From an uncultured Alcanivoracaceae bacterium (GTDB taxonomy: Bacteria > Pseudomonadota > Gammaproteobacteria > Xanthomonadales > Marinicellaceae), in the NCBI GenBank assembly GCA_913061105.1, contig CAJXVJ010000005.1, positions 1-42,123 on the forward strand: a stretch of 42,123 bases of DNA, given 5' to 3'. Below the pieces are notes generated by a model. That model made no database searches and was not told the DNA's origin. It saw only the letters and a list, made by a program, of their open reading frames with translations. Positions 5,809-27,941 of the stretch are shown here, in pieces; positions within the stretch are counted from its first letter, which is position 1, and each line of letters starts with the position of its first letter. The position numbers were made by a program, and so were the translations under genes.

Positions 5809-8800
5809 ATGACACCACATAGATCAATCCATAATTATTTATTATTAATACTCTTTTCAATCGCCATACAAGCCAAGGATGAAGACAAACCCATGGCCTA
5901 TTCAGAGCTTCCCAGTCAATATTATCAGAAGTTTATATTGTCTAATTTTAATAATGATAATGATAAAATTACATTCTATGGGCTTAAAAATGGCAATCAA
6001 GACTTTAGCATTCAACAAAAAAGTATATACCAAAATGGAGATTTGAGTATACAAGCAAAATCTGAAGGTTCAAATGCATGGATTAATGCAACGATAGGTA
6101 AAAATAGCATATTTGGAGAAATGCATGAAAATAATAAGCACCACATAATTACTACTGATGCCAATGGCTCATGGTTAATTGAATTGCCTAAAGATGGATT
6201 AATTTACAACAGTTGTCCACTCAATCATGAACAACCAGAATCTCAAAAAGTTTCCCATAATTCAACCCAAAAAAATAATTCCAATGAAGGTACATCAAAT
6301 GTCATTGATTTTTATATGATGTATGATCAAGCCATTGAAGACAGGTACCCTGGAGAATTACTTGAAACGCGATTAAATCAATATTTCAATGTCGCCAATC
6401 AATCACTGTTTAATAGTAATATTGATTTGAAGGTTAGATTAGTTGGCTTTGAAAAAACCAATTACAACTCTTCCAATTCAAATGAAATTGCCAGAAATAA
6501 TATAAGAGCGGCTTTAGCTGGAGCACCAGTCAACGGATTAAATAACTTACTTCAAAGACGTCAACAATTGGGTGCAGATATGGTTGTATTAATAAGACCG
6601 CATAATATTCAGACCCGTGGAAATTGTGGTATTGCCTATTTTCCTGTAACTACTGACAATGGCAATTCATTCGATGACACATATGGTGTCCATGTGATGA
6701 GCGATGGCATGAGTAGCTGGTCTATTTGTACTGATCAATTGATGATACATGAACTTGGACACAATTTAGGTGCCACGCATCACAATGATCCAAACGATTA
6801 TTTGCCTGGCGGTGGGGGCTATGCCAAAATTGGTAAATTTAGCACAATTATGGGTTCCTTTGGCACAGGTCAACCTGAAAGGTTTTTCGAGATTGATGCC
6901 TTTTCAAACCCAAATATACAATGTGCAGGTGTACCTTGCGGTGTTGCCAATCAATCCAACAATGCTAATGTAGCCTCACAGTTGGTTCCATTTGTGGCCA
7001 ATTATCAACCAAGCATTTCAAACCTGCCGTTGTCAAACATTAAAACCCCATCAAACCCAGACAGTGATGGGGATGGTCTCAGTGATTGGGATGATGAATT
7101 TCCTTTTGATAAAAACGAAACATCAGACCTCGATGATGATGGTGTTGGAGATAATTCTGATGCCTTTCCTACAAATGCTTCTGAACAATATGATACTGAT
7201 AATGACGGTATTGGGAACAATGCCGATAACGATGATGATGGAGATGGTGTTAATGATAATTCCGATTATTTTCCTTTAGATGAAAATGAAGTCAGTGACA
7301 GTGATATCGATGGTATGGGTGATAATGCGGATGCATTTCCAAATAATATTTTCGAGCAAGTTGATAATGACAATGATTCAATCGGTGATAATCAAGACCT
7401 GGATGATGACAATGATGGTTTTGATGATACTGATAACATTGCTCAAGACATTTTGGTTATTAATACTGGTAGTAATCAAATATTGCGATTTGATGCACAA
7501 ACTGGTCAACCTAAAGGCATTGAATTAACAGCCGATGATGGATTACTCACTTTTCAGTCTGATTTAAGCTACCGTGAAGGTGAACAGGTGCTGTACTATA
7601 CCAGCTCTTCTTCAGTCAAACGATTAGATTTAAGTAACAGAAACCCATTGGATTTAGCTATTCCTCCTTATTTCAGAGATGATTTTTATCCGCGATTGTC
7701 AATTTATTTGAACTCAGGTTTTCCAACAAGTTTAACCAATATTCAAGGGACATCTGAAATAGTTCTCTCAACACTAAGAAGTACACAACCAATTAGATTC
7801 AAAGGTTCTTTTCCTACACTGAGAAATGGAAGTTATATTTTAGAAAACAACGAAAACATATTAGACATAGTTAATGATAATTCTGATATATATTTCCTAG
7901 ACCAATCTTCAAGCATATACAAAGGCCAAATTACAGACACAAATATTCAAAAATTAGGTGGAAACAATTCATGGATGAGCAATCAATTTGCCATGCAAAA
8001 GACCCAGGACAACCGATTGTTAATTTCCAATCAAAACACAAATCATATTGGTACCATTGATGCCAATTCTGGCGCTTATTTAGGCATTTTTGCCAAGATT
8101 AGTGATTATGGTTATACCAACCCAACAGGAATGGCAATTACAAATGAGAACATACTGTTAGTTGCAGCAAATGACCAAAACAGTATTTTAAAGTTTGACA
8201 TTTCTAATGGTGAATTTTTAGGACTATTGGTGGCTGATAAAGGCTTAAACGATCCTTATAAAATGATAGTCGTTCCTAAATTAGTTGATAGGTTTCACAA
8301 TGAAGATGATAAAGTCATCAGACCAAATGCAGGCCTATGGTTTAACCAAGCCAAAAATGGCAGAGGATTTGACATACAGATTTTTAATAACCGTTTGTCA
8401 GTGATTTGGTATACCTTCGACGAATCAGGCTTACCAATATGGTACATCAGTTCTGGCGAATTGAACGGGTTTCAGTATGAAGGCGAATTTTTAAAAACAC
8501 ACTTAAATACTGATAACTCTGTTTCAACTGAAATAGTTGGCAGCATTAGTATTGACTTTAATGATGAAAGAAATGCCGAGGTTAACTGGCAAATTAATAA
8601 CAATCAAGGTTCAGAATCCATTGATTGGTTGACTTGGAGCAACCAAGCTGAGACCGAAAACTATACAGGATTATGGGGCCGCCCAGATGGTCCTGGTTGG
8701 GGAGTTTCAGTAGCTACCATTGGCCCAACTTCAGTAGCTATTCCTTATATCTATGATTCATCAGGTGAGCCTAGGTGGTTAATAAGCAACCCAATTGATA

Positions 8801-26047: not shown

Positions 26048-26095
26048 TTTTAACGCCTTGCTCATCAGTTTATCTGATGCAGCTACATGTTAGAC
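26048..26095 (-). other. Candidate integron attC recombination site
   Basis: Minus strand: GTCTAAC-ATGTA-GCTGCATCAG-ATAAA-CTGATGAGC-AAGGC-GTTAAAA. 1L box RYYYAAC matches; 5-nt spacers; 2L/2R pair with one extrahelical G; 1R GTTAAAA differs from GTTRRRY only at the last base. The racemase stop TAA lies within GTCTAAC. Confidence 0.72.
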
Positions 26096-26844
26096 ACAAT
26101 TTGTATGCTCTGTTGCCTCCCTAACTGCAGCCTCAGCCAACAGACGATTTGAGTTTAATGTTGGCAGCACTGAATTTGAGTCATCAATAATTAATGGTAT
26201 CTCTGTGCATCCAAGAATAATTGCGTCACAGCCTTTGTCTTTTAAACTACTGATCACCTCCTGAAAATAGATTACTGATTCTGGCTTAAAAATACCATAA
26301 ACCAATTCCTCCATAATTATGCGCCCAACTTCATTAATTTCTTCATTCGATGGCCGTTCCCAAGTAAGTCCTAAACATTCTATTTTTTCTGGATAAACAC
26401 TGCTTTCAACCAACCACTTAGTTCCCAAAATTCCAAGTTTCCTAAAACCCTTATATTTTGAGTTTTCTACGACAACCTCTGCTATATGAAGCCAAGGTAA
26501 GGGAGCGCGTTTTTCAACGTATTTGAAAGCCTGATGGATTGTATTGTCAGGGCAAATTAGAAAGTCTGCGCCCAGCGCCTTCAATTTGTTAGCAGAAGAA
26601 AGCATTAATTCACCAATGCCATTTATATCATTAGAGTTCAAGCAATCCACATAATCGGCGAGAGAATGAGTATGCATAGAAATTTCAGGGTGAACATGCT
26701 CACCTAATGTTTTTGGGCTTTCAGTACATATCGTTTTGTAACAAAGTGCCGCCCCTTCGGCAGAACATCCAACTATTCCAATATGTTTAGAAGAATTCCC
26801 CATACTTATTTACGCCTCAATGATTAGGTTCCGAGTTTGTCTAA
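26054..26844 (-). mobile_element. Candidate integron gene cassette (about 791 bp) carrying the racemase-family gene
   Basis: Predicted cassette start G|TTAGACA (minus strand, core at 26838-26845) is the exact complement of the 1L box TGTCTAAC at the 3' end; 41-nt leader, one ORF, attC right at the stop codon. Confidence 0.68.
26090..26803 (-). CDS. Aspartate/glutamate racemase family protein
   Basis: IGIVGCSAEGAALCYKTI, LICPDNTIHQAF, AIILGCTEIPLII. Confidence 0.88.
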   Translation of the reverse strand: MGNSSKHIGIVGCSAEGAALCYKTICTESPKTLGEHVHPEISMHTHSLADYVDCLNSNDINGIGELMLSSANKLKALGADFLICPDNTIHQAFKYVEKRAPLPWLHIAEVVVENSKYKGFRKLGILGTKWLVESSVYPEKIECLGLTWERPSNEEINEVGRIIMEELVYGIFKPESVIYFQEVISSLKDKGCDAIILGCTEIPLIIDDSNSVLPTLNSNRLLAEAAVREATEHTNCV

Positions 26845-26889
26845 CAACTTGATAGTAGTGCATTTTTGCACATTAATTTATGTAAGACA
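26838..26889. repeat. 52-bp imperfect inverted repeat at the upstream cassette boundary (possible degenerate att site)
   Basis: TGTCTAAC (26838-26845) vs GTAAGACA (26882-26889), 7/8 pairing; central GTGCA-TTTT-TGCAC (26858-26871). Confidence 0.45.
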
Positions 26890-26967
26890 GTCATTTTTGG
26901 TCTTTTTTTGGTGAATTTTGATTCTATCACATCATTTTATCGAATAATAGAGGTGGTTTTATACGCT

Positions 26968-27028
26968 ATAATCGTGATTAATTTGCACTAAAGAACTATT
27001 ATCAGTAATAATCGTGATTAATGTGCAT
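26968..27028 (-). promoter_or_regulatory. Two 21-bp direct repeats 40 bp apart, each with a palindromic core TAATC-GT-GATTA; possible operators
   Basis: ATAATCGTGATTAATTTGCAC (26968-26988) and ATAATCGTGATTAATGTGCAT (27008-27028), upstream of the minus-strand racemase gene. Confidence 0.5.
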
Positions 27029-27122
27029 TTTTAATAGATTGTTATGCTGAATAATAATAGTTTGTTTTCATTTCTATGCTCGGTTTTGACGAGTGGATAA
27101 TAAGGTACCCACGAAGGGCACA

Positions 27123-27500
27123 CCGTACGGCAAATTCAATAAATATGTATGGCGCAACCTTTGAAAGTGTGAAATAACTCTTTTTAATGTAGTGGAGCAC
27201 CTGTGTGTGCTCCTTCTCTTGGGTTTTCTCACTATATGTGAAGAGTAATGATAGATTTACAATGAAATACTTCCAAAATAGGGCGGACACACAGTTCCGC
27301 ACCCTACACCGAGCGATTTAACAGTATCCATGTGGTTGCCCTTCTCATACAAGAAATTGATTTACAAAGTAATTATTTAACTACAAATGAATAAATAGTC
27401 ATTGGATAGTTGGCTTTAGCCACCCTTTTTATGTATTTTTCTTAAGTGGATTTTGTTACTATTAATTTCGCAAGCGAAATTGGGCGGGACTGAAGTCCCG
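27123..27500. repeat. Cluster of short extragenic palindromes (REP-like)
   Basis: CCGTACGG 27123-27130; GGAGCAC-ctgtgt-GTGCTCC 27194-27213; TAGGGCGGA...TCCGcaCCCTA 27280-27307; TGGCT-tt-AGCCA 27411-27422; AATTTCGC-aa-GCGAAATT 27464-27481; CGGGACT-ga-AGTCCCG 27485-27500. Confidence 0.6.
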
Positions 27501-27569
27501 ACTTTTGAATACAAAGAATCATTCAAAATTAATGTACGGCTTAATCCTTGTGAATATCCATTTTAACAT

Positions 27570-27941
27570 TTAAGTACTTATTTTCATACCAACAAAAAAA
27601 GCCAAAAAGCACAATACAAATGTTGATATCAAATAGGTAAAGCCTTTTAAGTATTCCCCATAGGACATCATTAATACAGTTTCCATTGAAAAGGTTGACC
27701 AAGTGGTTAATGCCCCTAGAAAACCCATCATTATGAACAACTTCACATTTTCAGAGGCTTGGTACTTGTCTATTAAATACACATAGGCTATTCCCATTAA
27801 AAAACAACCTACAACATTAACTAGCAAAGTTGCCCATGGGGTTGAAGCTCCAAAATAATGCGTAATGGCTTTTGAGTTAAAGAATCGTATAACAGCACCC
27901 AATGCACCACCTGCTGCCACCACTAAGATTTGCTTAATCAT
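27570..27941 (-). CDS. crcB: Fluoride-specific ion channel CrcB (Fluc)
   Basis: GGALGAVIRFFNS, PWATLLVNVVGCFLMGIAY, GFLGALTTWSTFSMETVLMM. Confidence 0.95.
   Translation of the reverse strand: MIKQILVVAAGGALGAVIRFFNSKAITHYFGASTPWATLLVNVVGCFLMGIAYVYLIDKYQASENVKLFIMMGFLGALTTWSTFSMETVLMMSYGEYLKGFTYLISTFVLCFLAFFVGMKIST

Follow-up and report, generated by a model that had tools for sequence, protein, structure and literature searches.

On the minus strand of the window, our term for the whole stretch of 42,123 nucleotides analysed here, a gene for a racemase-like protein ends inside a sequence laid out like an integron attC site, and no integrase lies beside it. This raises the question of whether the gene is a true integron cassette and, if so, what received it at this place.

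The racemase cassette and its attC site

The GTC TAA that ends the ORF at 26090-26803(-) falls within GTCTAAC-ATGTA-GCTGCATCAG-ATAAA-CTGATGAGC-AAGGC-GTTAAAA (26095-26048, 48 nt), exactly as a preliminary description of this DNA had reported. The site was judged with a covariance model (R1) for which 18 attC sites in the arrays of related genomes served as the training set, with the genome itself left out; hand-written attC scanners were dropped because they were too loose for this use. R1 scored the site at 32.3 bits, with E values of 5.9e-6 in the 96 kb searched and 1.1e-6 in 18 kb with filters off (runner-up match, 7.9 bits); across the full 3.59 Mb of the genome, E was 2.2e-4. The check with attC models proposed in the preliminary description thus placed the site above background level. 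As a single strand, the site was predicted to fold (-6.9 kcal/mol, z -2.8) into a 2L/2R hairpin that leaves one base extrahelical.

At the opposite end of the unit, TGTCTAAC at 26838-26845 reads GTTAGACA on the minus strand. The first seven bases of the cassette, GTTAGAC, and the 1L box of its attC, GTCTAAC, are complementary at 7/7 positions, as in a circular form that closes the attC. This complementarity and the one-gene unit of 791 bp had both been predicted, and both were borne out (Table 1). These results confirm that the racemase gene is a true integron cassette, which comprises one gene, has an attC, and begins in a way that agrees with circularisation. Its attC is the only one that the R1 search found in the window, which is under the minimum of two for a CALIN (a cluster of attC sites without an integrase).

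Five R1 matches with E<=1 were found in the 3.59 Mb genome, namely two on contig C75 (42.6 and 37.1 bits), the window site (32.3 bits), one on C248 (25.8 bits), and one on C32 (22.2 bits, E=0.115). All of them (5/5) are on contigs that bear the leader sequence described below.

The cassette protein scored 128.5 bits with TIGR00035 (amino acid racemase), against a curated cut-off of 93.1, and 84.8 against 31 with PF01177, and its closest solved structures were Asp/Glu racemases such as 5ell and 5hqt. By family, the predicted product is an amino acid racemase, for which the cell-wall role put forward in the preliminary description would be one possible function. No homologue at E<=1e-40 was found in ten congeners (0/10). 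Homologues at 56-64% are present in scattered families of the order; no attC was found near them in the other genomes of the order, and the idea that the racemase is also a cassette elsewhere was dropped for this reason.

Table 1. Coordinates of the cassette, the leader, and the adjoining host gene in the window.
Feature	Position	Strand	Evidence
Cassette as integrated (one gene, 791 bp between the crossovers)	26054-26844	-	7/7 start/1L complementarity; leader boundary; attC boundary
Cassette gene, 237 aa, predicted amino acid racemase, Asp/Glu racemase superfamily	26090-26803	-	TIGR00035, PF01177, solved relatives
attC: 1L GTCTAAC (26095-26089), 2L GCTGCATCAG, loop ATAAA, 2R CTGATGAGC, 1R GTTAAAA (26054-26048)	26048-26095	-	R1 score; hairpin fold
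Integron leader (attI and intI-promoter region), integrase-less	26843-27031	+	R2 101.8 bits, E=2.9e-30 (this copy is in the training set); independently, BLAST
attI core, with palindrome GTGCATTTTTGCAC at 26858-26871	26843-26877	+	32/35 invariant columns in the genome's own four integrase-less leaders
Promoter-like element TTGCAC-N17-TAATAA of the lost intI gene	26983-27011	+	Alignment of leaders preceding intI genes; predicted from sequence
Stretch where intI would start, without integrase or recognisable intI remnant	27032-27569		tblastn
crcB, first host gene past the platform, then rarA/mgsA-like and lolA-like genes	27570-27941	-	PF02537

The adjoining leader and the integrase of the genome

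The sequence directly adjoining the cassette start is homologous to the ~190 bp that precede an integron integrase gene (intI) on contig C32 of the same genome. BLAST comparison showed that it is 73-81% identical to this C32 intI leader and to further copies on C75, C349, and C248, and the predicted IntI crossover lies between 26845 and 26844. A tblastn search with the genome's own IntI found no integrase in the window. Since the adjoining leader is homologous to the C32 intI leader and intI is absent here, the racemase cassette stands at an attI that lacks an intI of its own. Of the parts of a complete integron, an attI adjoining the first cassette is present, and an intI beside that attI is not.

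The statement in the preliminary description that no integrase is present is therefore correct for the window and wrong for the genome, in which C32 carries a full integron integrase (6434-7384; TIGR02249, 381 bits vs a cut-off of 265). The suggested search of other contigs yielded this gene and the attC sites on C75, C248, and C32. Besides the C32 leader with intI, four integrase-less leaders were found (on the window contig C5, C75, C349, and C248); C236 and C198 bear further copies that are incomplete or decayed. On the right-hand side of the leader, the sequences on C5, C75, C349, and C248 are unrelated and contain no integrase gene; the genome is a draft of 371 contigs, in which an intI beside a contig-end leader could be missed, and the window is unaffected by this.

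The four integrase-less leaders are unevenly conserved. Invariant columns made up 32/35 of the first 35 bp vs 47/93 of the middle (p=8e-6), and 41/61 of the intI-promoter part (p=0.03). In the window leader, a 29-bp sequence is present twice in tandem (26959-26987 and 26999-27027), and the promoter-like element lies inside this duplication. GTGCA palindromes are found at both the attI and the intI promoter (26858-26871 and 26959-27027), and together with the 29-bp repeat they are possible binding sites for a regulator or for IntI.

Three further observations concern the contigs of this genome. On C32 (L010), a 28-bp perfect palindrome, ATAAGTGGCGCATGGATGCGCCACTTAT, at 6205-6240 opens the cassette side at the attI of the sole complete integron, so that the attI G is followed by AT where TT is usual. 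On C72 (L011), a second intI 3' end (23-157; 92% identical over 39 aa) lies at the contig start, and a second integrase copy or remnant may therefore exist in the genome. Some contig ends (L011 1-32 and the starts of L010, L035, and L036) resemble an untrimmed sequencing adapter, TGTATAAGAGACAG, with the recurring peptides MCIRDR and SDVYKRQ.

Leaders in Marinicellaceae and in sister species

With a sequence model of the leader (R2; match threshold E<=1e-8), 102 leaders were found in 26/33 genomes of the family, spread over two genera; 12 genomes from other families of the order yielded no match. The same two genera contain about 24 integron integrases over the cut-off, and the surplus of leaders over intI is approximate because some leaders lie at contig ends; at most of the fetched leader loci, the absence of intI is directly visible. 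Integrase-less leaders also align with the sequences that precede 20 intI genes. Marinicella litoralis KMM 3900 (G012), which with M. gelatinilytica S6413 (G024) represents the named relatives in the set and identifies the family as Marinicellaceae, has eight leaders by R2 and two intI, and in G022 there are four leaders and no intI above the threshold. Several attI sites are thus scattered over Marinicellaceae chromosomes, usually with one or two integrases, and therefore one enzyme probably loads many places.

In 20 fetched regions around integrase-less leaders, all attC matches were on the attI side of the leader in the correct orientation, and the attC nearest to the leader was mostly 0.3-0.7 kb away. 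The first seven cassette bases were compared with the 1L box behind 21 leaders, and 18 matched at 7/7 positions. At the four variable positions, 79/84 were complementary, with a mean of 41.8 and a maximum of 60 in 10,000 shuffles. These junctions are therefore the ones that IntI crossover at attI yields. The attI core is also the conserved part of the G016 leaders, which like those of the own genome are old copies (33/35 invariant columns vs 54/91 in the middle, p=5e-5); no significant contrast between core and rest was found in G012, whose copies are recent, or in G005.

The sister species G001 and G004 share one such locus, with flanks of 92% over 2.2 kb on one side and 79% over 1.9 kb on the other. 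Each has an integrase-less leader and a cassette there; the cassettes differ, and the common flank restarts at TTAAAG, the attC crossover. The leader type differs too, and therefore leader and cassette may have been replaced jointly. The cassette change could predate the loss of intI in one species. At a second locus (G001_C185/G004_C370), where one flank is comparable, the leader is of the same type (90%) and the cassettes are again different. Separately, an intI-bearing integron is 100% identical between the two species (G001:C7, L067; G004:C356, L069), compared with about 92% at other loci, which indicates either a recent transfer or a mis-binned contig.

The order crcB-rarA-lolA is kept in ten congeners. 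No empty site was recovered at crcB in these congeners, which lack homologues of the window's far-side genes beside it; a complete integron on the crcB contig of G002, about 5 kb away, is suggestive only. Nor was an empty site found for the recent M. litoralis copy G012_507, as the upstream DNA is not conserved in relatives.

Dispersed attI platforms and alternative readings

Taken together, the comparisons suggest that Marinicellaceae probably have dispersed attI platforms that are served in trans by one integrase. The window carries an integrase-less platform consisting of attI, leader, and one captured amino acid racemase cassette. This is one of at least five platforms in its genome, of which one (C32) has a complete integrase gene, and integration and excision of cassettes at the remaining attI sites are most likely the work of the C32 IntI. 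Behind the leader of each platform, a few cassettes follow immediately, in a position where a leader promoter could express them, and expression of the racemase may be driven in this way. Platform copies may have spread within each genome and then lost intI, leaving remnants at several, and cassette exchange would have continued after this loss by means of the remote integrase. The conservation of the attI core and the cassette difference between G001 and G004 argue for such continued use of integrase-less leaders, as far as sequence comparison can indicate it.

In the leader tree, copies clustered mostly by genome (own genome, 5/5, 97/92; G008, 3/3; G005, 3/3), and leaders have therefore spread or been homogenised within genomes. 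In M. litoralis, one leader shares 98% identity over 201 bp with a leader that has intI, and past this point the two are unrelated. More tentatively, the attI leader could be a self-standing, spreading docking station. It would be copied without intI, often stopping immediately ahead of the start codon of that gene, and would stay matched to the resident integrase, so that one integrase and many attI sites form a cassette network. A fixed right end of the leader was ruled out as a general feature: the pair G012_278/G012_1182 has about 120 bp in common beyond the leader, and the right end is therefore not always sharp. Flanking inverted repeats were likewise rejected as the ends of a mobile unit, since the repeat at the G001/G004 locus is a dispersed intergenic repeat that is also present away from leaders; no strong flanking repeat pair was found in the window.

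Remnants of intI follow the leader at G008_C4 (where the leader runs straight into mid-intI sequence), G008_C36, G018_582, G014_C86, and G005_C129, and about 75 bp of intI remain at G001_C154. They are what would be expected if whole integrons had been duplicated or gained and their intI had decayed, so that the leftover leaders and last cassettes are now inert. We consider this reading rather unlikely, because in two independent genomes (the own genome and G016) the attI core has stayed conserved next to a decayed middle part of the leader, and because leaders with 96-98% identity within one genome are followed by different cassettes from the crossover on. The earlier proposal of a remnant of a sedentary array comes closer to the present picture than its alternative, insertion at a secondary site, and is incomplete in that an intact intI exists elsewhere in the genome, further integrase-less attI leaders are present, and the pattern is family-wide.

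The somewhat conserved intI-promoter part of leaders without intI would also fit retention of the leader solely as a promoter or other regulatory sequence of the following gene and not as a recombination site. Conservation peaks at the attI end, and the cassette junctions are exact crossovers, which makes this quite improbable. Chance insertion of a single cassette at a secondary (attG-like) site, as proposed earlier for a window with one cassette only and without integrase, is hardly credible because the 189 bp upstream of the cassette are an attI-bearing integron leader common to the intI locus and several others.

An integron is usually pictured as one platform with one integrase, one attI, and one array, of which the first cassettes are mainly expressed. 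If the reading of dispersed platforms served in trans is correct, a single integrase would be able to keep the first positions at several attI sites filled simultaneously, which would change the view of the limits on cassette expression and order. As in a sedentary chromosomal integron, attI, attC, cassettes, and an integron-family IntI are present in the genome; the difference is that several attI platforms per genome, mostly without intI, hold few cassettes each. A functional IntI is stated to be able to mobilise CALINs in trans (PMC12444791). They share with the window attC-bearing cassettes without a neighbouring integrase, whereas here a conserved attI leader precedes the cassette, and there is one attC where the usual threshold is two. 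Integrase-less attI leaders would give an origin for solitary cassettes that remain uncalled by pipelines requiring two attC sites.

A prophage case is similar in that an attI precedes an integrase-less array and a complete integron is also in the genome, but it is one case in one prophage, and here there are several per genome in two genera of one family. Extra attI-type sites are also known from the delta-attI cassettes of mobile integrons, where they are usable by IntI1 (PMC12901181); those lie within one array beside a cassette, whereas here whole leaders head separate loci. In the open literature (subscription papers and preprints being outside the scope of the search), we found no report of genomes with multiple integrase-less attI leaders, nor any paper in which Marinicella and integrons are both named.

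Other arrangements of leaders were also observed. In G016:C12 (L151, 5001-6904), two integrase-less leaders stand face to face over 1.9 kb, with one attC each between them. In M. litoralis, extra leaders (L075 2992-3190; L074 6745-6896) lie a few kb from intI-bearing leaders on the array side, and one of them carries a piece of the 3' end of a host gene.
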